Below are positions 26,308 through 45,206 of a DNA stretch of 64,000 nt, in pieces; positions within the stretch are counted from its first letter, which is position 1, and each line of letters opens with the position of its first letter. The stretch is taken from assembly GCA_030154105.1 (NCBI GenBank), contig JASKKP010000003.1:62001-126000 (forward strand), in the 5' to 3' direction. The position numbers and the translations under genes were made by a program. Source of the DNA: Bacillota bacterium. Lineage in GTDB: Bacteria; Bacillota; DTU030; DUMP01. Below the pieces are notes generated by a model. That model was not told the origin of the DNA. It was given only the letters and a program-made list of their open reading frames with translations, and ran no database searches.

Positions 26308-27189
26308 ATGAACTTTCTTCGCGAAGCGCTGGCGGAAGCCTGGGGCGACACGCTGGAAATGGTGCCGTTACTGTTTTTGCTCTTCCTTCTCCTGGAAGAA
26401 GTGCAACATCGCCTGGGAGGCAGATTGGGTGCCTGGCTCAGGGAGGCCGGACGATGGGGCCCGCTGGCCGGTGCCGGCTTGGGAATCATTCCCCAGTGCG
26501 GCTTTTCCGTTTTGGCCAGCCTTCTTTACCTCAGGGGGCTCATCACGCCGGGAACGCTTCTGGCCGTATTCCTGGCCACGTCTGATGAAGCCGTACCGGT
26601 GATGCTAGCGCAGCCGGCCAAAATCGGCTACATAGCACCGCTTCTTATGGTGAAGTTTGGGCTGGGTGTGGCAGGGGGTTACCTGACCGACTTCATATTC
26701 AGGCATGACGGACGCCCGGCATTAGCCGAACGAAATGGCGGCCTGCCTAAGCTAGGCGGCCATATTCCCGGCGAGCATGCCCACCCGGTGCGCGCGGCCA
26801 CGATGTTTTACCACGCCGCACGACAAACTGTACACACCTACGCTTTTGTCTTAGCCGCTTCGACCCTTCTCAATATCGGGGTAGAACTTGTAGGGTTCTC
26901 CGGTGTCTCCCGGCTACTCTTGGTGGGTAGCCCCTCCCAGCCCGTACTGGCCGCACTGATTGGGCTAATTCCCAACTGCGCGGCTTCGGTCGTCCTGGCC
27001 CAGCTTTACCTGGAGGGGGCTTTGAGCTTCGGCGCTGCCGTGGCCGGGCTCGGGGCGGCCGCCGGCTTGGGCCTACTCGTGCTTGCCCGGCATAACTCTC
27101 CGCGGGATACCTTAAGGCTCGTCGGGTTCCTTCTGGCCTTTGCCGTGCTGGCGGGCCTGCTTCTTCCGGCGCGGCCGGTAGTATGGTGA
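26308..27189 (+). CDS. Putative manganese/metal transporter, polytopic membrane protein
   Basis: Product of 293 residues with eight to ten hydrophobic segments. It shows internal duplication: GIIPQCGFSVLASLLYLRG in the first half and GLIPNCAASVVLAQLYLEG in the second. This paired motif is typical of the membrane family annotated as putative manganese transporter or arsenic-efflux-like. A His-rich cytoplasmic loop (GGHIPGEHAHPV) lies between the halves. ATG at 26308. It follows a Fur-family regulator by 68 nt, consistent with metal homeostasis. Direction and ion are inferred. Confidence 0.75.
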   Translation: MNFLREALAEAWGDTLEMVPLLFLLFLLLEEVQHRLGGRLGAWLREAGRWGPLAGAGLGIIPQCGFSVLASLLYLRGLITPGTLLAVFLATSDEAVPVMLAQPAKIGYIAPLLMVKFGLGVAGGYLTDFIFRHDGRPALAERNGGLPKLGGHIPGEHAHPVRAATMFYHAARQTVHTYAFVLAASTLLNIGVELVGFSGVSRLLLVGSPSQPVLAALIGLIPNCAASVVLAQLYLEGALSFGAAVAGLGAAAGLGLLVLARHNSPRDTLRLVGFLLAFAVLAGLLLPARPVVW

Positions 27190-27881: not shown

Positions 27882-28523
27882 ATGGATCTAGAGAATTATA
27901 CCCGTGCGAACCCCATTATTGCGGCGGTACGCGACGTGGCCGACCTAGAACAAGCCCTAAAGGCTACGGTGCGAGCTGTTTTTCTTTTAACCGGAGACAT
28001 CAACAACGTAGCCGACTGCGTGCGGTCTGCCCGGAGCGCGGGAAAGGGGATTTACCTGCACCTCGACCTGCTGGAGGGCTTGGGGAAGGACAAGGCGGCG
28101 GTCCGTTTCCTGGCGGAGGAGGCGCGCCCGGACGGCATAATCACCACCCGCAGTAACCTAATCCAGGCAGCGAAAAAGGAGGGCCTGTATACCATTCAGC
28201 GTATTTTTATTCTAGATTCCTTATCCATTGAAACGGGGATTGCCAACGTAAAGGCGACGCTTCCGGATGCAGTAGAATGCCTGCCGGGAATTCTGCCCCG
28301 CGTCTTCGGCGAATTGGTCAAGAAACTTCCTTTGCCCATCATCGCCGGCGGCCTTATTAAGTATCCTGAAGAAATCTGCGAGGTCCTCAGAACAGGCGTT
28401 AAGGCAGTCTCGGTGAGCAACAAAAAATTATGGAATTTCTTTCGGGGTGAGGAGGAATTCTGGGAGTTCTGTAGAATAAATAAAAAGCAGGAGGCCGGTT
28501 ATACTGGCCCACAAGAAAAATAA
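27882..28523 (+). CDS. glpP: Glycerol uptake operon antiterminator GlpP, copy 1
   Basis: Product of 213 residues, the GlpP size. Recognisable segments are NPIIAAVRDV, VFLLTGDINNV, HLDLLEGLGKDKAAVRFL, RPDGIITTRSNLIQAAKK, ECLPGILPRV and LPIIAGGLIK. In Bacillus GlpP binds glycerol 3-phosphate and glp leader RNA and allows transcription past a leader terminator. Here the glpK leader begins within 10 nt of the glpP stop and contains exactly such a terminator/antiterminator pair, so this protein is the probable factor. ATG at 27882. Confidence 0.94.
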   Translation: MDLENYTRANPIIAAVRDVADLEQALKATVRAVFLLTGDINNVADCVRSARSAGKGIYLHLDLLEGLGKDKAAVRFLAEEARPDGIITTRSNLIQAAKKEGLYTIQRIFILDSLSIETGIANVKATLPDAVECLPGILPRVFGELVKKLPLPIIAGGLIKYPEEICEVLRTGVKAVSVSNKKLWNFFRGEEEFWEFCRINKKQEAGYTGPQEK

Positions 28524-33902: not shown

Positions 33903-34502
33903 ATGACGCAGCTTTGGCGCTGGTTAGCTACCAGCCCGGTTATCGCGGTCGTACGCAGCGGCGATGCCGCTACCGAAGCCCTGAACGCTCCAGCGCGCTG
34001 CGTCTTCTTGGCTACCGGTGATATTTCCGACGTCGGTACGTATATCAGCCGTTTTCACAGCCGGGAAAAGGTGGTCTTCCTTCATACCGATCTTATTGCC
34101 GGCCTGGAGAGCGATCAGGCAGCGGTACACTTTATCGCCCGCCGCCTTAGGCCAGACGGCATCCTGACCACACACGGCCAGCTTGTGCGGGCCGCGCGAA
34201 AAGAGGGGCTGCTCACCGTGCAGAGCCTTTTCCTCCTTGATTCGCTGGCCGTAAAAAGCGGCCTAAACGCCGTGCTCAAGAGCTGCCCTACGGCGGTTCA
34301 GGTGCTGCCGGGTATCTTGCCGCGAGTGATCCGCGAGCTCAAGTCGATGTGTTCCTTGCCCATCATTGCAGGTGGCCTTATCCGCAGCCAAGTGGACGTA
34401 GAGGAGGCGTTGGCGGCTGGAGCTATAGCCTGTGCTACAGGAGAACCGCGGCTGTGGTGGTACCGCAAGGTAGAAACAGTGCCCAGCGCAGGACGCGGGT
34501 AG
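33903..34502 (+). CDS. glpP: GlpP-family antiterminator, copy 2
   Basis: Product of 199 residues with the same framework as the copy at 27882: SPVIAVVRSG, VFLATGDISDV, HTDLIAGLESDQAAVHFI, RPDGILTTHGQLVRAARK, QVLPGILPRV and LPIIAGGLIR. The two are clearly diverged. ATG at 33903 after GGGGAAAGGAA. The next gene encodes an unassigned membrane protein, so this copy may control it, or act on a different leader or ligand. A second GlpP in one cluster is unusual. Confidence 0.9.
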   Translation: MTQLWRWLATSPVIAVVRSGDAATEALNAPARCVFLATGDISDVGTYISRFHSREKVVFLHTDLIAGLESDQAAVHFIARRLRPDGILTTHGQLVRAARKEGLLTVQSLFLLDSLAVKSGLNAVLKSCPTAVQVLPGILPRVIRELKSMCSLPIIAGGLIRSQVDVEEALAAGAIACATGEPRLWWYRKVETVPSAGRG

Positions 34503-34581: not shown

Positions 34582-35460
34582 ATGGCGATTGACGTTAGCG
34601 CCCTCGTAGCATCTTTTGGCGGTGGCGTTGTGGGCGCAGCCTTGGGCGGACTCCCAGCCTTCATCCTTACAGGTTTTGCTGTACTGGCCGGTGTGGCAGC
34701 TGGCTTTTTCGGGCAACCACAAGCCGCCGCGATCGTCAACTCGGTGGCGTTCGGTCCTTTCCTTGGACCGCACATCGCTTTTGCCGGCGGTGTGGCAGCG
34801 GCGGCTTACGCGGCGCGTAAGGGCCTGGACGTTACGGGTAAAGATATCGGCGTGCCGCTTACCAAGTTCAACGATCCGGGCGTCCTCTTTGTGGGTGGCG
34901 TCTTCGGTGTGCTGGGTTACCTCCTTAACGCCCTGTGGGTGGGTATGGGCCTAAAGACGGATACGGTAGCTTTTACGGTGGCCGTCTCGGCGATCATTGC
35001 TCGGGCGGTGTTCCTCGGTGACGGGCCCTTCGGCAGCCTGCCGGCGGAGATGAAAGATAAAGGCTTCGGCGGCCGCTTCGTAGTTACGGAAGGGCACTGC
35101 TGGCTACCCTGGCAGAAAGATTTCGGGCAGCTGGTAGTGCTCGGCCTGGGCTTCGGCCTGGCGGCCGGGATATTGGCTGTGACCACGGGACAGCCGGTAC
35201 TCGCCTTCGGTATCAGCGCCGCTTCCTTGGTTTTCTTGGAGTTTACTCCCGGCTTCCCCGTAACCCATCATATTACCTTACCGGCAGCGCTGGCGGCCGC
35301 TGCCACCAACAGCGTGATCATGGGCGGCGTGTTCGGGATTCTTGGCGCACTTTTTGGAGAATTCTTCGCTCGGCTTTTCTACAACTACGGCAAGAACCAC
35401 ATCGACCCACCGGCCTGCGCCATTGCCCTGGCGACGACGATAATTCTTCTTTTCCTGTAG
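34582..35460 (+). CDS. Polytopic membrane protein of unknown function, candidate C3-compound permease
   Basis: Product of 292 residues with about eight hydrophobic segments, rich in Gly and Ala. Polar conserved-looking residues are in [50 protein letters not shown] and [12 protein letters not shown] do not recognise the family with certainty. It is not an aquaporin-type GlpF: no NPA box is present. Context is strong, between glpP copy 2 and the dha regulator, so it may import glycerol or dihydroxyacetone, for which no other carrier is encoded nearby. ATG at 34582 after AAGGAGGAGG. Confidence 0.65.
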
Positions 35461-35476
35461 GGAAGTTTGTGCTAGC

Positions 35477-35503
35477 GGCCCCCGCGCGGGGGCCGTACTT
35501 TTT
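35477..35503 (+). terminator. Intrinsic terminator after the membrane protein gene
   Basis: GGCCCCC and GGGGGCC close a GCGC loop (35477-35494), followed by GTACTTTTT. It separates the glpP2-permease unit from the regulator gene. Confidence 0.88.
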
Positions 35504-35533
35504 ACCGGCTTGGCCCCGAAGGAGGTAGGACGC

Positions 35534-37603
35534 GTGACGTACAACAAGCCGGCCGTCATCCAACACGGCCGCGGCGTACATGCACGGGTGGCGGCTATGG
35601 TGGTGAAAAAGGCGACGGAGTTGGCTCGTTCATACGGCGTGGAGTTGGAGCTGGAGACGGCCGACGGGCGGCGGGTGCCGGCGACGAGTATGCTGGCCGT
35701 GCTGGGGCTAAACCTCCGGCAGGGTGCGGTGCTGAACGTTTCCGCTCGGGGAGACGGGGCGCAGGCTGCAGTGGAAGAGCTGGCGCTTTTTCTCCAGAGC
35801 GACTTTGCCACCGATGGCCAGGCGTCTCTAAGCCAGGTGGACGAGCTTCTGGACGAAACCACCCTAACGGCCGAGCAGATCTTTACCAGTATGGCTGCCG
35901 GCCTGGTGGTCACCGATGCCCGCGACCGGGTGGTAGTTTTTAATCCGGCGGCCGAACGCCTTTTTCGGCTTCCCGCGCGTATGGCCTTGGGCCGGCCGGC
36001 AGGAGAATTCTGGCCGGAAGCCGCCCTCGAAGTGGTGCGAGTAAGTGGGCAGCCGGCGACGCGGCACCTCGAATTGCCGGGCGGCGCAGTCTTGGCCACT
36101 CTAACTCCCATCCGCTTGGCGGGGGAAAGCCAGGGCGTGGTGACGCTTCTGGAGGATATCTCCCGTGTTGAACAGCTGGCCGGCGAGCTCCGGGCGGTAA
36201 AAGAGCTCAAGGAGCGGCTGCAGCTGATCTTGGATACCGTGCACGACGGTATTTCGGTAGTAGATAAAGACGGAGTTATTACCTACGTCAACCCGGCGTA
36301 CGAGGAGATCGTCGGCCAGCGCCGAAGTGACCTCGTGGGGAAGAACATTTTTGTTCTTTCGCCTCACGGTGCCCGCGCCCGGGCCCTGAAGAGCGGGGAA
36401 AAAGTGCTGGGTGCGTTGACGCACAAACCCAATGGGCGAACGCTCGTGGCCAACGTTTCCCCGATCTGGGTGGAAGGAGAAATCTGCGGTGCCGTTTCCG
36501 TAGTAAAAGATGTTTCGGAAGTGGAAAAGCTGGCCGAGCATCTGCATAAAGTTATGGCCCGGGCCGAATACTTGGAGCAGGAGCTCAGCCGGGCCCGGGA
36601 GCTTCCTGCAGCCTTTCAAGGTATTATCGGGAGTAGCGGCGCCCTGCGCGAAGCGCTGGCGGTGGCCCAGAAGGCTGCGGCCAGCACTTCGACCGTTCTC
36701 ATCCGTGGCGAAAGCGGCACCGGCAAGGAACTGGTGGCCCGTGCCCTGCACGCGGCCAGCCCTCGAGCTAAAAAGCCGTTCGTGCGGGTCAATTGTGCGG
36801 CCATCCCCGGGCCGCTCCTGGAAAGCGAACTCTTCGGCCACGAAAAGGGCGCCTTCACTGGAGCCTGGCAGCGCCGGCACGGTCGCTTCGAGCTGGCGGA
36901 CGGCGGCACCATCTTTCTCGATGAGATTGGGGACATGGAGCCCCCCATGCAGGCCAAGCTCCTTAGAGTGTTGCAGGAGCGCGAATTCGAACGCGTAGGC
37001 GGCGAGACCACCATCAAGGTAGATGTCCGCATTATCGCCGCCACCAACCGCAACCTGGAGGAGATGGTGCGTACGGGCCGCTTCCGCGAGGACCTTTATT
37101 GGCGGCTGAATGTAATTACCATCTTTCTTCCCCCGCTGCGGGAACGGCGGGAGGACATCCCGCGCCTGGCCGAGTATTTTCTCACCAAACTGGCCAAACA
37201 ACTCGGCAAAGATGTGCGCGGAATTGCGCCCGAAGCTATGGCCTGTCTGGAGAAGTATAGCTGGCCGGGTAATGTGCGCGAGCTCGAGAACGTCATTGAA
37301 CGGGCGGTCAACCTGGCCGAAGGTACGATCATCACCGCCGCCGACCTGCCCGCTTACGTTCGCGAGGGCGGGATACCGAGCGAAGGCGTACCGACGGCCG
37401 AGGACGGCCCCCTCCTTCCTTTCGCCGCCTACGAGAAGGCCATTCTTGCCCGGGCGCTCAAAGAGTGCGGAAGCTTCCGCGCAGCGGCCAGGGCCCTGGG
37501 CCTGGACCACAAGACCGTGGCCGCGCGGGCACGTAAGTATCACCTGACCGGCGGGCAGGCCCGAGAAGGTGGCCGGCGGATGCGGGCGGCCAGGCCGCTG
37601 TAG
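35534..37603 (+). CDS. Sigma-54-dependent activator with N-terminal HPr domain, two PAS domains, AAA+ and Fis-type HTH
   Basis: Product of 689 residues. Residues 1-90 are HPr-like: [11 protein letters not shown] aligns with the HPr active site (His16), and Ser52 sits where HPr kinase would act. PAS domains lie at about 112-205 and 230-335. The AAA+ domain has Walker A GESGTGKE (392-399), the sigma-54 contact GAFTGA (439-444) and DEIGDM. A Fis-type helix-turn-helix lies at about 636-674. GTG at 35534 is chosen for its AAGGAGGTAGGACGC ribosome site. A consensus -24/-12 promoter with paired palindromes stands before dhaK, so it almost certainly activates the dha operon. Confidence 0.92.
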
Positions 37604-37643
37604 ACCTGCCCGGATGGTGCCGGCGGAGCGAAATTACCCGGGC

Positions 37644-37681
37644 GGGGAAGTATTCCCCGGCCTTTCGGGGAGAATTTCCCC
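37644..37681 (+). promoter_or_regulatory. Tandem upstream activator sites for the sigma-54 regulator
   Basis: GGGGAAGTATTCCCC (37644-37658) and GGGGAGAATTTCCCC (37667-37681) are two 15-bp palindromes of the form GGGGAR-N3-TTCCCC. Their centres are 23 bp apart, about two helical turns, and 74-97 bp upstream of the -12 element: the usual arrangement for an enhancer-binding protein. Confidence 0.82.
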
Positions 37682-37732
37682 AAGAAGCTGCCGCCACGGT
37701 TGCGCCCGGCTCGTCTGGCTTGGATTCCGGGT

Positions 37733-37749
37733 TTGGCATGTTCCTTGCA
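37733..37749 (+). promoter_or_regulatory. Sigma-54 (-24/-12) promoter of the dha operon
   Basis: TTGGCATGTTCCTTGCA matches the TGGCAY-N5-TTGCA consensus, with the invariant GG and GC separated by exactly 10 nt. It lies 63 nt upstream of the dhaK start codon. Confidence 0.9.
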
Positions 37750-37812
37750 CTGCCTTGGGGTAGGGCCGTATGGGAAGCGGCGTCATGAGCAAAAAAGAAG
37801 GAGGAGTAGAGG

Positions 37813-38811
37813 ATGAAAAAGCTCATTAACCAGCCGGATCGCGTGGTGGAGGATATGCTGGCGGGGATGGCCGCAGCCTATCCCCAGTACATCCGCCTGC
37901 TCCCGGACCTCAACGTGGTGGTGCGCGCGGATGCCCCGGTTAAAGGCAAAGTGGCGCTCGTTTCGGGTGGCGGCAGCGGCCACGAACCCACCCACGGCGG
38001 TTACGTGGGCCGCGGCATGCTGGACGCGGCCTGCGCGGGTAACGTCTTCACTTCTCCCACTCCCGACCAAGTGCTGGCGGCCATCAAGGCGGTAGATGGC
38101 GGCGCCGGCGTACTCCTGGTGGTAAAGAACTACACCGGCGATATCATGAACTTCGACATGGCGGCGGAGATGGCGGCGGCGGAGGGCATCGAGACGGCCA
38201 GCGTAGTGGTGAACGACGACGTGGCGGTGGAAAACAGCACGTGGACGCAGGGACGGCGCGGCATCGCCGGTACTATCTTTGTGCATAAGATCGCCGGCGC
38301 CAAGGCCCAGGCCGGCGGGAGCCTCTCCGAGGTGAAGGCCGTGGCCGAGAAGGTCATCGCCAACGTCCGGAGCATGGGCATGGCGCTTACCCCGTGCGTA
38401 GTGCCCGCGGCGGGCAAGCCGAACTTTACCCTGGCCGAGGATGAAATGGAGATCGGCATGGGCATTCACGGTGAACCGGGAACGCACCGCGAGAAGATCA
38501 AGACTGCCGATGAGATCACCGCCCACCTGACGGAAAAAGTCCTGAACGACCTGCCCTTTAAGAGCGGGGATGAGGTGGCGGTGATGGTTAACGGCTTGGG
38601 CGGGACGCCGCTCATGGAGCTCTTTATCGTCAATAAGAAAGTGGCCGCTATGCTGGCGGAGCGCGGCATCAAAGTCTTCCGCACCTACGTGGGCGAATTT
38701 ATGACTTCGCTGGAGATGGCCGGTTGCTCGGTGACCCTACTCAGACTTGATGAAGAGCTTAAGGAACTTCTGGCGGCCCCGGCCGACACCCCGGGGTTCA
38801 AGCAGCTCTAA
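37813..38811 (+). CDS. dhaK: PTS-dependent dihydroxyacetone kinase, substrate-binding subunit DhaK
   Basis: Product of 332 residues. GGGSGHEPTHGGYVGRGMLD near residue 55 is the DhaK signature, and GIHGEPG with His219 carries the residue that binds dihydroxyacetone covalently. ATG at 37813 after AAGGAGGAGTAGAGG. With DhaL and DhaM it phosphorylates dihydroxyacetone using PEP-derived phosphate. First gene of the sigma-54-controlled operon. Confidence 0.96.
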   Translation: MKKLINQPDRVVEDMLAGMAAAYPQYIRLLPDLNVVVRADAPVKGKVALVSGGGSGHEPTHGGYVGRGMLDAACAGNVFTSPTPDQVLAAIKAVDGGAGVLLVVKNYTGDIMNFDMAAEMAAAEGIETASVVVNDDVAVENSTWTQGRRGIAGTIFVHKIAGAKAQAGGSLSEVKAVAEKVIANVRSMGMALTPCVVPAAGKPNFTLAEDEMEIGMGIHGEPGTHREKIKTADEITAHLTEKVLNDLPFKSGDEVAVMVNGLGGTPLMELFIVNKKVAAMLAERGIKVFRTYVGEFMTSLEMAGCSVTLLRLDEELKELLAAPADTPGFKQL

Positions 38812-38879: not shown

Positions 38880-39518
38880 GTGCCTTTAACAGCCCAGGAA
38901 CTTATGGACATGATTCGCGCCATCGGGCAGACCCTAGAGGAGAATAAGGCGTTTCTGACGGAGCTAGACAGCGCCATCGGCGATGCCGACCACGGCATCA
39001 ACATGGCTAAGGGCTTCCACGCCGTGGAAGAGAAGCTACCGGACCTGACGGGAAAAGATGCGGGGACCATCTTAAAGACCGTAGGCATGACTCTGGTAAG
39101 CACTGTGGGCGGGGCGGCCGGACCGCTTTACGGTACGGCTTTTATGCGGGCCGGGATGGCCGTCGGGTCTAAGGAGGTACTGGATACCCGTGACCTGGTA
39201 CGGGCGCTGGAGGCGGCCATCCAAGGGATTAAGCAGAGGGGCAAGGCCGAACGCGGTGACAAAACGATGATCGACGCTTTGGAGCCGGCGTATGAGGCCA
39301 TCGAAAAAGAGATCGCCGCCGGCAAAGAGGCGGGCGCGGCCCTGGCCGCGGGCGTAGCGGCGGCGGAAGCCGGCGTGGAATATACCAAGGGTATCATCGC
39401 CCGCAAGGGCCGGGCAAGCTATCTCGGTGAGCGAAGCATCGGCCATCAAGATCCCGGTGCTACCTCTAGCTACCTCATTCTAAAGACGATGGCCGAATTT
39501 CTGTCTGGGAGGAAGTAA
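38880..39518 (+). CDS. dhaL: Dihydroxyacetone kinase ADP-binding subunit DhaL
   Basis: Product of 212 residues. AIGDADHGINMAKGF near residue 35 provides the Mg-binding aspartates, and GGAAGPLYGTAF and a C-terminal GRASYLGERSIGHQDPG complete the nucleotide site. GTG start at 38880 after an AGCGGGGGACG stretch. DhaL keeps bound ADP as coenzyme and is rephosphorylated by DhaM. 1 nt separates its stop from the next gene. Confidence 0.95.
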   Translation: MPLTAQELMDMIRAIGQTLEENKAFLTELDSAIGDADHGINMAKGFHAVEEKLPDLTGKDAGTILKTVGMTLVSTVGGAAGPLYGTAFMRAGMAVGSKEVLDTRDLVRALEAAIQGIKQRGKAERGDKTMIDALEPAYEAIEKEIAAGKEAGAALAAGVAAAEAGVEYTKGIIARKGRASYLGERSIGHQDPGATSSYLILKTMAEFLSGRK

Positions 39519-39519
39519 C

Positions 39520-40044
39520 ATGGCGGAACTTAGTGGAAAGCGGGTAGCCGTTCTCGTGGAGGAGGGCTTCGAAGACTTGGAGCTCTGGTACCCCGTCCTG
39601 CGCCTTAGGGAGGCCGGGGCTACCGTGGAAGTTATCGGCACGGGCAGCGCCCCGGAATACCGGGGAAAGTACGGGCTTTTAAGCCGCCCGGATAAGACCA
39701 TTGATCAGGTGCAGGCAAAGGATTATGACGGTCTGGTGGTGCCGGGCGGCTGGGCGCCGGATAAACTGCGCCGCTACAGTGCGGTGCTGGCCTTTGTGCG
39801 CGAAATTTTCGCCGCGCAAAAGCCTGTAGGTGCCATCTGCCACGCCCCGTGGGTCTTAATTTCCGCCGGCGTTCTGAAGGGCAGAACGGCCACGTCGGTG
39901 GTGGCGATCAAGGATGATGTGGAAAACGCCGGTGCTTCTTGGGTGGATAGGCCGGTAGTCCAGGACGGCAATCTAATCACCTCGCGCAAACCCGACGATC
40001 TGCCCGATTTCTGCCGCACCCTGATCGCCGCCTTCGCTAGATAG
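39520..40044 (+). CDS. DJ-1/PfpI-family protein in the dha operon
   Basis: Product of 174 residues. GAICHAPWVLISAG contains the nucleophilic Cys of the DJ-1/PfpI fold, with the family's N-terminal VAVLVEEGFEDLELWYPVLRL segment holding the conserved Glu. Members act as proteases, glyoxalases or deglycases. Placed between dhaL and dhaM, it may deal with methylglyoxal or glycation damage arising from triose metabolism; this is inference from context. ATG at 39520. Confidence 0.88.
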   Translation: MAELSGKRVAVLVEEGFEDLELWYPVLRLREAGATVEVIGTGSAPEYRGKYGLLSRPDKTIDQVQAKDYDGLVVPGGWAPDKLRRYSAVLAFVREIFAAQKPVGAICHAPWVLISAGVLKGRTATSVVAIKDDVENAGASWVDRPVVQDGNLITSRKPDDLPDFCRTLIAAFAR

Positions 40045-40509: not shown

Positions 40510-40779
40510 ATGCAGCAGCGAACGGTTACGCTCACGAACAAACTCGGCCTTCACGCCCGGCCCGCGGCGGCTTTTGTGCAGAAGGCCAACCAGTTTCAAG
40601 CGGCGATCTCCGTGCGGGCAGGGCAGAAAGAAGCGAACGCCAAGAGCATCCTCAGCATTCTCGCCCTCGGGGCCCGGCAGGGCGATACCATAACCATCGT
40701 GGCCGACGGTCCTGACGAGGAACGGGCGTTGGCGGAGCTGTGCGCCTTTCTCGCTGCGGGCTGTGGCGAAGGCAACTGA
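40510..40779 (+). CDS. ptsH: HPr-family phosphocarrier protein
   Basis: Product of 89 residues. LTNKLGLHARPAAAFVQKA carries the phosphoryl-accepting His15, and NAKSILSILALGARQGD contains the Ser46-type regulatory site. ATG at 40510. It receives phosphate from the enzyme I encoded next and probably serves DhaM. Because it lies in the dha operon with no sugar PTS permease nearby, it may be dedicated to dihydroxyacetone phosphorylation. Confidence 0.95.
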   Translation: MQQRTVTLTNKLGLHARPAAAFVQKANQFQAAISVRAGQKEANAKSILSILALGARQGDTITIVADGPDEERALAELCAFLAAGCGEGN

Positions 40780-40803: not shown

Positions 40804-42516
40804 GTGTGGCAGGGCGTAGGAGCCGCGCCGGGAATTGCCATCGGCCCGGCGGTGGTGGTCAAAAGATCCCAAGGGGAGGTTTCCTCGGAAACCGGGGCCG
40901 CTATTGATCCCCGGCGAGAAGAGGCGCGCCTGGCGGAAGCCGAACGGGCCGTGCGCGCAGAAATTGCCGCCCTGCGGGAACGGACGGAGCGCGAGCTCGG
41001 CGCAGAGCAGGCTGCGATTTTTACCGCCCACCTCCTCATGCTGGAAGACCCGGCCCTGGTGGGCGAAGCGCGGCGTCTCATTGCCACCGAAGGGCTCTCG
41101 GCGGTTACGGCCGTAAAGCGCGTGGTGGCCGAATTAAGCGCGACCTTGGCCGCCCTCCCCGACGAGTACCTGCGCGAGCGGGCGGCCGACGTGCGCGACG
41201 TGGGAGAGCGCCTTCTGGCCTACCTGACCGGAACGGCGGAGCAGGAACTGGTCCTTAAGGAACCGGCAGTGGTGGTGGGAACGGACCTTACGCCGTCCCA
41301 GACCGCGCGGCTGCCTAAGGATAAACTTCTCGGCCTCGCCAGCGCCGCCGGCGGGCGCACCTCGCACGTGGCCATCCTGGCCCGCTCGCTGGGTATCCCC
41401 GCCGTGGTGGGCTTGGGTGAGGCGTGGATAAGCGAGGTGCGCGACGGGGACCTCCTGGTAGTGGATGGGACGCAGGGCCTCGTCCTGGTAAACCCGGACT
41501 CCGCCGAGCTCGCCGCCTGGCGTAAGCGACAGGCACAGGAAAAGGCGGAAAAGGAGCGCCTGGCCGCCCTCCGTTCTTTGCCCGCCGTAACCAGTGACGG
41601 CCGGCGGCTGGAGCTTGCGGCCAATATCGGAAGCCCGGCGGATGTGGAAGTAGCCAAGGCCTCTGGGGCGGAGGGCGTAGGGCTCTTGCGCACCGAATTC
41701 CTCTATATGGATAGAAATGAACTTCCCACCGAAGACGAGCAGTTCGAAGCCTACCGCGCCGTCGCTCGGGCTTTCTCTCCCCAGCCCGTGATCATCCGCA
41801 CTCTAGACGTGGGCGGGGACAAGGACATTCCCTACCTCGGGCTGAAGCGCGAAGAAAACCCCTTTCTGGGCCTTAGGGCCATACGGTTTTCCCTGGCGCG
41901 CCCGGACATTTTCCGGACGCAGCTTAGGGCCATCCTCAGGGCGAGCTCCTACGGCAACGTGAAAATCATGTTTCCCATGGTTGCCGCCCTTCAAGAAGTG
42001 CGGGCGGCCCGGGCGCACCTCGAGGCCGTACGGGAGGAACTAACTGCGGCGGGGGAGAAGGTGGCGCAAAGAATTGAGGTCGGAATCATGGTGGAGGTGC
42101 CGGCGGCCGCTCTGGCAGCCGACCTCTTGGCTTCGGAAGTGGACTTTTTCAGCATCGGCTCGAACGACCTCATCCAGTACACCTTAGCTGCCGACCGCCA
42201 CAACGAACGGGTAGCCTACCTATATGAACCCTTCCACCCTGCCGTGTTGCGCCTTATCGAGCGCACCATCAGCGCCGCCCACCGGGCGGGGATTTGGGCC
42301 GGGATGTGCGGGGAACTCGCCGGCGACCCGCTGGCCGCGCCGCTCCTTTTGGGGCTGGGGCTGGATGAGTTCAGCATGGCGGCGAGTTCGATTCCGGTGG
42401 TGAAGGAGCGCCTGCGCTCCCTAAGCTACGAAGAGGCCCAGGGCCTGGCGCGCGTGGCCCTGTCTCTACCGGACGCCGAAGCCGTGCGCGCGCTTCTCGC
42501 CGAACGAAGGGAGTAA
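40804..42516 (+). CDS. ptsI: PTS enzyme I (phosphoenolpyruvate-protein phosphotransferase)
   Basis: Product of 570 residues, the full enzyme I length. [21 protein letters not shown] contains the phosphorylated His188; [15 protein letters not shown] and the PEP-binding [19 protein letters not shown] and [11 protein letters not shown] segments follow. GTG start at 40804 after GGGGGCTGGAAAAT. Takes phosphate from PEP and gives it to HPr. Last gene of the dha operon; a bidirectional terminator follows. Confidence 0.95.
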
Positions 42517-43080: not shown

Positions 43081-44472
43081 TCAGAACCCTGCCAGGATAA
43101 GGTTAAGGAGGACGAGAACGAAAGCGGCTACCGTGAGAGGAAGGAAAAAGGCTACGGTGGTCCAGCGCAGGCTGCGCGTTTCCCGGTAAATGGTCCAAAG
43201 GGTCGTGCTGCAGGGAAAATGGAGGAGGGAAAAGAGCATCACCGAAAGCGCCGTACCTAAATGCCACCCGTGGGCGGTAAGGAGGGCGTGGAGGGCGGCC
43301 AGGCTGTCTGGGTAAATAAGGGCGCCTTCGGCGAGGTACGTCATCACCGCAATGGGTAGCACGATCTCGTTGGCCGGCAGGCCTAAAAAGAAGGCGAGCA
43401 AGACGACGCCGTCTAGGCCCAGGAGCCGCGCCGGTCTGTCAAGCCAATCCGCCGCGCGGAGGAGAAGGCTGGTTCCTCCCAGATGGGTGTTGGCCAAAAG
43501 CCAGGTCACTGCGCCGGCCGGGGCGGCCATGGTGACGGCGCGGCCCAGGACGAAAATGGTGCGGTCCAGGAGGGAGCGCACGAGGATCCGCGACACTTGG
43601 GGAGGCCGGTACGGTGGCAGTTCGAGAAGAAAGGCCGAAGGGATGCCTCTGAGCAGGGTTCGCGTGAGCAGCCAGGAGACCAGAAAAGTTATGGCCACGC
43701 CCACGAGAACCAGGGCCAGTACGGCCAGGGCCGAAAAAAGGGCGGCTCCGGGGAAGAAAACTGCACCCCTGATAAACAGGGTACTTAGGGCGATTAGCGT
43801 AGGAAAGCGGCCGTTGCAAGGTATGAAACTATTGGTCAGGACGGCGATAAGCCGTTCGCGCGGCGACTCGATGATGCGGCAGGCGATGACCCCGGCGGCG
43901 TTGCAGCCGAAGCCCATGCTCATGGTTAAGGCCTGCTTGCCGTGGGCTCCGGCCCACTGAAAGAGGCGATCCAGGTTAAAAGCCGCGCGGGGGAGATACC
44001 CGAGGTCTTCGAGCAGGCTGAAAAGGGGAAAGAAGATGGCCATCGGAGGAAGCATCACGGCTACCACCCAGCTCGTCGTCCGGTAAACGCCGAAGACCAG
44101 AAGGCCGTGGAACCAGGCCGGTGTTCCCCAACCCGTAAGCGCGGCGTTCAGTGCCGCCTCGCCGCGGGCGAAAAGGGCGGAGAGAAGCTGCGAAGGGTAG
44201 TTGGCGCCCTCTAGGGTAAGCCAGAAAATTCCCGTTAAAAGAAGTAGCATGATGGGAAAGCCAAACTCTCGCGAGGTAAGGAGGAGGTCGAGGCGCTCCT
44301 GCCAAGCCGGTGCCGGCTTCGCCTGATTTTTCAGAGTGCGGGCGGCAATGGCCTGCGCCTCCGCGTAGATCGTCCTTGCCAACTCATCGTGCAGGGCGGC
44401 GGGGGCCAGGGAGCGCGCTTGCTGCCAGGCTTGAACCAGGGCATGTCGCTCCCGGTTTTCTAATTCAACCAT
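43081..44472 (-). CDS. feoB: FeoB membrane domain (split ferrous iron transporter, permease part)
   Basis: Product of 463 residues with about ten membrane segments and the FeoB gate motifs SMGFGCNAAGVIACRIIESPRER and NSFIPCNGRFPTLIAL. The usual N-terminal GTPase domain is absent and encoded by the next gene upstream on this strand. The two overlap by 13 nt in different frames. ATG at 44472 has its own ribosome site (GGGAGGGTGGGAGC), which argues for a genuine split rather than a sequencing frameshift. Carries Fe(II) across the inner membrane. Confidence 0.9.
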   Translation of the reverse strand: MVELENRERHALVQAWQQARSLAPAALHDELARTIYAEAQAIAARTLKNQAKPAPAWQERLDLLLTSREFGFPIMLLLLTGIFWLTLEGANYPSQLLSALFARGEAALNAALTGWGTPAWFHGLLVFGVYRTTSWVVAVMLPPMAIFFPLFSLLEDLGYLPRAAFNLDRLFQWAGAHGKQALTMSMGFGCNAAGVIACRIIESPRERLIAVLTNSFIPCNGRFPTLIALSTLFIRGAVFFPGAALFSALAVLALVLVGVAITFLVSWLLTRTLLRGIPSAFLLELPPYRPPQVSRILVRSLLDRTIFVLGRAVTMAAPAGAVTWLLANTHLGGTSLLLRAADWLDRPARLLGLDGVVLLAFFLGLPANEIVLPIAVMTYLAEGALIYPDSLAALHALLTAHGWHLGTALSVMLFSLLHFPCSTTLWTIYRETRSLRWTTVAFFLPLTVAAFVLVLLNLILAGF

Positions 44473-45206
44473 GCTCCCACCCTCCCGGGCTCTAGCGACG
44501 GGCGGCGCTCAGGGCTTACCTCTTGGGCGGCGGGGTACCCCAGGCGCGCCAAGAGGGCTACGTCGTTTTCCAAAAGGCGCAGGGCCAGCCAACGCGGGTT
44601 GAACCGGCCGATCAAGGGAGCCAGGAAGGGCATGAGGTGTGCTACGGCAGTTTCTACTTCTGCGCCGTAGGTTATTCGGCGCGGCTTCGGAACGGCACGG
44701 CCGGTGGCTACGTCCAGGATTGCCTCTTTCAACTCTTCAAGGCCTTCCCCCCGGCGGGCGGCACACGGGACCACCGGGACGGCGAGCTCATGCGCCAAAA
44801 GCCCTGTGTCCACCTCCAGCGCCAGGCGCCGGGCTTCGTCCATCAAGTTAAGGCAGACGATGACGCTCGGTGTCAGTTCCAGCACTTGGAGCACCAGGTT
44901 GAGGTTGCGTTCCAGGCGGGTGGCATCGGTAACCACCACGGTGGCCGCCGGGCGTTCGAAACAGATGAAGTCGCGGGTGACCTCTTCGTCGGGCGAGTTG
45001 GGGAAAAGGGAATACGTTCCCGGCAGGTCCACTAAAGTAAAGCGCAGGCCGCGCCAGGCGAACTCGCCCCGGGCCAAGGTGACGGTCTTTCCCGGCCAGT
45101 TGCCCGTATGCTGCCTGAGGCCCGTGAGGGCGTTAAAGACCGTACTTTTTCCGGTGTTCGGATTACCGGCGAGGGCCACCAGCAGGCCTTTGCTTAAAGA
45201 CATCAT
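44460..45206 (-). CDS. feoB: FeoB GTPase domain (split ferrous iron transporter, N-terminal part)
   Basis: Product of 248 residues. GNPNTGKSTVFNALTG is the P-loop (G1), VDLPGTYSLFP is G3, and CLNLMDEA is G4; a helical GDI-like region follows. It ends where the first membrane helix of FeoB would begin. ATG at 45206 overlaps feoA by 4 nt. It would act in trans with the membrane protein encoded next to form a complete FeoB. Confidence 0.92.
   Translation of the reverse strand: MMSLSKGLLVALAGNPNTGKSTVFNALTGLRQHTGNWPGKTVTLARGEFAWRGLRFTLVDLPGTYSLFPNSPDEEVTRDFICFERPAATVVVTDATRLERNLNLVLQVLELTPSVIVCLNLMDEARRLALEVDTGLLAHELAVPVVPCAARRGEGLEELKEAILDVATGRAVPKPRRITYGAEVETAVAHLMPFLAPLIGRFNPRWLALRLLENDVALLARLGYPAAQEVSPERRPSLEPGRVGAWLN

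Follow-up and report, generated by a model that had tools for sequence, protein, structure and literature searches.

A predicted sigma-54-dependent control unit for dihydroxyacetone breakdown in a Bacillota bacterium, with paired G-rich operators and an HPr-containing activator

The region 37643-37749 of the window (the whole stretch of 64,000 nucleotides analysed here) is the predicted control region of a sigma-54-dependent dhaK-dhaL-pfpI-dhaM-ptsH-ptsI operon, and its promoter, its operators and the enhancer-binding protein (EBP) encoded just before it very probably act as a single control unit. The original prediction, which had read promoter, activator sites and activator as one unit governing the dihydroxyacetone operon, is supported, as the combination is kept in a close relative (G001) and in distant relatives. 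That prediction left out the HPr domain of the EBP, the family operator TTGATA-N5-TATCAA and a published prediction for the Clostridiales. The arrangement recurs across many related bacteria and is therefore real and of a largely known kind; its docking sequence is unusual. The features of the unit are as follows.

35534-37603, plus strand: EBP, with the order HPr-PAS-PAS-AAA+(GAFTGA)-Fis-type HTH
37643-37659, no strand assigned: predicted upstream activator site 1, CGGGGAAGTATTCCCCG, a palindrome perfect except in the middle
37666-37682, no strand assigned: predicted upstream activator site 2, CGGGGAGAATTTCCCCA, 23 bp from site 1
37733-37749, plus strand: sigma-54 -24/-12 promoter TTGGCATGTTCCTTGCA, read directly and predicted from sequence
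37813-38811, plus strand: dhaK, dihydroxyacetone kinase subunit K, with a strong ribosome-binding site AAGGAGGAG conserved in G001
38880-39518, plus strand: dhaL (Dak2)
39520-40044, plus strand: DJ-1/PfpI-family gene within the operon, shared with G001 and L115
40056-40451, plus strand: dhaM, single-domain phosphoryl donor subunit of the EIIA-Man type (TIGR02364)
40510-40779, plus strand: free-standing HPr (ptsH-like)
40804-42516, plus strand: PTS enzyme I (ptsI-like)

The intergenic region between the EBP gene and dhaK (37604-37812) was read directly. It carries a perfect -24/-12 element, TGGCATGTTCCTTGCA (37734-37749), in which GG (37735-37736) and GC (37747-37748) are separated by exactly 10 bases, and the claimed GG-N10-GC spacing is thus exact. 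A pattern search of the window for TGGCAYG-N5-TGCW with no mismatch returned the dhaK promoter alone. This promoter belongs to a set of 12 perfect TGGCAY-N5-TTGCW matches that the 2.10-Mb genome contains. No sigma-70-like promoter was found in the dhaK upstream region. The usual spacing from the -12 places the predicted start of dhaK transcription at about 37759-37761, and rpoN, on whose presence the prediction depended, is encoded elsewhere in the genome (PF04552, E 2.3e-61). A tiny frame (37784-37812, MSKKEGGV-stop; MQEGGV-stop in G001) overlaps the dhaK ribosome-binding site and is probably a by-product of the conservation of that site.

Upstream of the promoter lie two palindromes of 15 bp, GGGGAAGTATTCCCC (37644-37658, centre 37651) and GGGGAGAATTTCCCC (37667-37681, centre 37674), which precede the GC of the -12 by 97 and 74 bp, respectively; the second has one arm mismatch (GGGGAG/TTCCCC). 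Their form (GGGGAR-N3-TTCCCC), the 23 bp between their centres and their distance from the -12 are as originally described. A scan of the 2.1-Mb genome for this pattern found perfect matches at just these two places, and likewise within the window. In 20,000 dinucleotide shuffles of this spacer between the EBP gene and dhaK, one such palindrome appeared in 9 and two in none, while a repeated palindrome pair of any sequence appeared in 11. The 608 real tiles of 210 bp taken from the window contained a pair in 2 cases, both overlapping the site upstream of dhaK. The size of the regulon in this genome was judged by pattern searches, in which the remaining perfect -24/-12 sites of the 12 had no perfect or one-mismatch palindrome nearby. 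A palindrome-like match at 26480 was dismissed as it has no -24/-12 nearby, and the glycerol operon of the window was rejected as a second target, having neither a comparably strong -24/-12 nor a site.

The gene preceding dhaK does encode a sigma-54 activator, as had been claimed. Its Pfam domains are PTS-HPr, two PAS, Sigma54_activat, AAA lid and HTH_50, and it retains Walker A, an arginine-finger region and an intact GAFTGA at residue 447 of the reading frame; an AAA+ domain with Walker A and a GAFTGA loop together with an HTH makes it an enhancer-binding protein. Walker A and the sigma-54 contact loop (GAFTGA or GSFTGA) were present in all 12 EBPs checked. Translation likely starts at GTG 35534, which has AAGGAGG 8 bases upstream, rather than at TTG 35510 of the longest frame. 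Between the start of the activator gene and the preceding gene, which encodes a membrane protein, a strong hairpin is followed by T5 (35475-35505; GCGGCCCCCGCGCGGGGGCCGT ACTTTTT), and G001 has a similar hairpin with a weaker T-run at that place. This hairpin, with the glpP antiterminator gene 1 kb upstream, could set the expression of the activator.

Within the order, the EBP was found in one of seven other genomes, namely G001, which belongs to the same genus and has an EBP 82% identical to that of the window. From glpK to enzyme I, its genes follow the order of the window as far as tested. In G001, TGGGGGAATACTACCCA and TGGGGAAGTATTCCCCA are retained with a spacing of exactly 23 bp. The one farther upstream is an imperfect palindrome, and the centre of the nearer one lies 72 bp from the -12 of a perfect TGGCACGCTGCTTGCA. 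In the alignment of the two spacers between the EBP gene and dhaK, the palindromes, the -24/-12 and the ribosome-binding site are kept and the rest has diverged. Hence the one relative of the same genus that keeps the activator has not lost the palindromes, but has both of them along with the -24/-12.

More distant relatives were collected by searching the phylum with the HPr-PAS part of the EBP and by further searches; a contig scan gave one full-length relative, from Clostridium simiarum, whose presence among the relatives puts the organism of the window in that phylum as well. Across the phylum, EBPs of the HPr-PAS kind adjoin dhaKLM, ptsHI, divergent ptsI, dhaM or glpK, with dhaKLM as the neighbour in 7/11 of the first loci fetched. 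Upstream of the -24/-12 promoters of these targets stands a 17-bp site, which is TTGATA-N5-TATCAA in most relatives, (C/T)GGGGA-N5-TCCCC(G/A) in the window and G001, and mixed in L111, L112 and L193-L195 (e.g., TTGGGAAAAAGTATCAA and TTGATACTTTTTCCCAA). Nearly all of the sites share G, A, T and C at positions 3, 6, 12 and 15, respectively. By their sameness of frame and of turn-of-helix spacing, the palindromes of the window are the G-rich version of this predicted family site. A perfect family site lies within 350 bp upstream of 28 of the 31 target promoters (the window included) as against 0.29% of shuffles, a comparison that measures enrichment and is not a blind test, because the regular expression was built with these sites in view. 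The independent cases are somewhat fewer than 31, as L053 and L201 are probably one genome and L117-L119 are close kin. The three promoters at which no perfect family site was found are those of glpP in L113 and L196 and of ptsH in L199; both L113 and L196 do have a perfect site upstream of dhaK, and their glpP sites are weaker. Where sites occur in pairs, their spacing is 22-23, 30-33 or 42 bp, or about 2, 3 or 4 helical turns, which would put them roughly on one helix face. The distances of 74 and 97 bp between site and promoter in the window are accompanied by 52-105 bp in several relatives. In Clostridium-type loci some of the sites are directly 5' of the EBP start, which suggests that the EBP also regulates its own gene there.

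The regulon of some relatives, which belong to other families, extends further. L113, L117-L119 and L196 have a second -24/-12 before glpP, with full or weaker sites, and their regulon therefore includes glycerol genes; taken with L203, in which the EBP precedes glpK-glpA and glpK has sites and a -24/-12, the regulon spans glycerol uptake and oxidation. The glycerol operon of the window differs from all of these in lacking the sites. In the window, two paralogues of glpP (glycerol-3-phosphate responsive antiterminator; 27884-28450 and 33903-34502) flank the glpK-glpA genes. Between glpP and the activator, a predicted membrane protein of 292 aa (34582-35460), 90% identical in G001 and without a Pfam or NCBIfam match, is perhaps a permease for glycerol or dihydroxyacetone. 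The DJ-1/PfpI gene, which adjoins dhaKL in L115, possibly serves in methylglyoxal detoxification. Downstream, on the minus strand (43081-45206), FeoB is apparently split, its GTPase-domain and permease-domain genes overlapping by a few bases.

Palindromes of this kind might instead work in RNA, or as the terminator of the activator gene, rather than by binding a protein. The two can form one long hairpin (-32.6 kcal/mol for a 65-base stretch, z = -2.4), and in several relatives too the two sites are inverted copies. However, no T-run follows the palindromes and no terminator-like match was found there. L113 has, beyond the site, another hairpin that does carry a T-run; Clostridium-type loci have the same sites between divergent genes, where a terminator would make no sense. 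The terminator reading was rejected, and an RNA role meets the difficulty that the sites are upstream of the predicted transcription start. Such a function is thus very improbable, and the palindromes are better read as operators.

The arms of these operators appear to change with the recognition helix of the EBP. Among 36 distinct EBPs of the Thr type (G[LIV]T[HR]), the half-sites are GATA in 122 of 136 cases, and with the two Asp-type EBPs, those of the window (GLDHKT at the start of the helix) and G001, they are GGGA in 6 of 6. The EBP of L115 is Asn-type (GINHKT), and TGGGGAAAAATTCCCCA stands there before dhaK with a perfect -24/-12; the immediate neighbour of the EBP gene in L115 is dhaM, upstream of which no clear site was seen. 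The G-rich arms thus coincide with a change from Thr to Asp or Asn at the start of the recognition helix, a covariation that rests on two independent changes and is a lead rather than proof; a search for further Asn-type relatives of G237 found none. The G-rich arms as a mere effect of G+C content were also considered, a view weakened by L115, L111 and L112. Base composition alone does not explain them, because the L115 stretch carries TGGGGAAAAATTCCCCA at 37% G+C; L111 and L112, at 60-61% G+C, retain one TTGATA arm per site.

The assignment of the sites to this EBP rests on position and conservation, in a genome with no fewer than nine genes for EBP-like proteins and surely with many for further DNA-binding proteins. 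A different regulator, e.g., a repressor of the operon, might therefore occupy the palindromes with the activator bound elsewhere. This is improbable, since throughout the phylum the frame of the site goes with this EBP, whether the promoter is that of dhaK, ptsH, ptsI or glpK, and the base change in the arms accompanies the change in the recognition helix of that EBP.

The promoter, the operators, their conservation, their co-occurrence with the EBP, its domain content and rpoN are all read from the sequences; the working of the unit is modelled on known EBP families. The EBP would bind the two 17-bp operators on roughly the same face of the helix and form an AAA+ ring, and a short loop of DNA would bring it to the RNA polymerase-sigma54 waiting at 37733-37749. 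Hydrolysis of ATP would then open the promoter, with transcription beginning near 37760. The HPr domain may sense how far the enzyme I-HPr-DhaM chain is phosphorylated. Phosphate drained through DhaM in the presence of dihydroxyacetone would leave the HPr domain of the EBP dephosphorylated and the EBP active, and full phosphorylation of the chain would keep the EBP inactive. The HPr domain has about an even chance of being such a phosphorylation sensor, and both this role and the sign of its effect are conjectural. The proposal draws on the invariance of His-x-Arg, on the occurrence of the EBP with PTS genes and on the presence of enzyme I and HPr genes among its targets.

The phosphorylatable His of the HPr motif (GxHxRxAA) is present in every EBP aligned, and the equivalent of Ser46 is not conserved. 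The window EBP has the His-x-Arg active site along with an insertion, and the Pro after His-x-Arg, present in the two ordinary HPr proteins of the genome, is gone; with that Pro missing and an insertion present, it cannot be taken for granted that enzyme I phosphorylates the domain. The main rival to sensing by HPr accepts the promoter and operators as real and makes the domain a docking module only, with the EBP sensing through a PAS ligand or through contact with DhaK or DhaL. The lost Pro fits this, as do the two PAS domains between HPr and AAA+. Ligand binding has been suggested for most Clostridiales EBPs by Nie et al. (PMC6615313), and the title of Baechler et al. (2005; listed in PMC3162934) has the binding of DhaK as what controls DhaR in E. 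coli. Yet His-x-Arg is invariant among EBPs that share only some 30-50% of their residues, and the genes of enzyme I and HPr recur as targets. Moreover, in the family of the window the EBP occurs in two genomes only, both with a separate HPr, and in none of the four genomes lacking HPr. A docking role is a serious possibility to which somewhat less than even credence may be given. Phosphorylation sensing can be joined with the helix covariation in a bolder proposal, namely that the EBP is at once a phosphate acceptor in the PTS chain feeding the kinase under its control and a one-protein flux sensor that responds to the drain of phosphate by opening a sigma-54 promoter, and that Thr versus Asp/Asn switches its site from TTGATA-N5-TATCAA to TGGGGA-N5-TCCCCA; this is tentative, and the balance is rather against it.

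The promoter, operator, activator and operon make up one predicted unit for the breakdown of dihydroxyacetone and glycerol that recurs across the phylum, and the operator TTGATA-N5-TATCAA with its G-rich variant offers a handle for finding such units. The HPr-fused activator raises the question of whether a transcription activator could read metabolic flux directly, by branching off the phosphate chain. Likewise, the covariation of Thr with Asp/Asn bears on site choice by Fis-type EBPs.

Several known systems resemble this unit. In Acetobacterium, Clostridium and Geosporobacter, an EBP named 'DhaQ' was predicted to control dhaKLM and ptsI (Nie et al., 2019; PMC6615313). Both systems have an EBP over dhaKLM and ptsI, an upstream activator site and a -24/-12, and PTS-HPr is among the EBP domains listed for Clostridiales. 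The window unit appears to be a member of the DhaQ regulon kind, the two being likened by their targets and taxa. It differs in coming from a distant, G+C-rich lineage, in its G-rich arms and in its distances of 74-97 bp to the promoter, shorter than the 100-250 bp usual for activator sites in Clostridiales (PMC6615313). For C. beijerinckii dhaKLM a sigma-54 promoter was predicted, so that both operons have a -24/-12 in front of dhaKLM, but the text available describes no activator or upstream site there, unlike in the window (PMC6510779).

E. coli DhaR is likewise an EBP-type activator of dhaKLM, and the window EBP matches the NCBIfam DhaR model over residues 215-680, with a score well below the cut-off of the model. 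However, DhaR is reported to have lost its dependence on sigma-54 (PMC3162934), whereas the window EBP keeps GAFTGA and has an HPr domain, and the sigma-54 independence and degenerate GAFTGA that mark DhaR are not found in it. The operon differs from the E. coli DhaR system as well in having separate DhaM, HPr and enzyme I. The PRD-type EBPs controlled by the PTS (LevR/CelR) are also PTS-linked sigma-54 activators, but their PRD domains are C-terminal to AAA+ (PMC6615313), in contrast to the N-terminal HPr domain of the window EBP, which has no PRD. Since the DhaQ regulon and a sigma-54 promoter for C. beijerinckii dhaKLM had already been predicted, the window is a new member and ordinary in kind. 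A literature search for the TTGATA/TATCAA motif in connection with dhaK and sigma-54 gave no relevant hit. What appears to be new is the distant lineage, the predicted operator family and the candidate one-residue switch of specificity.
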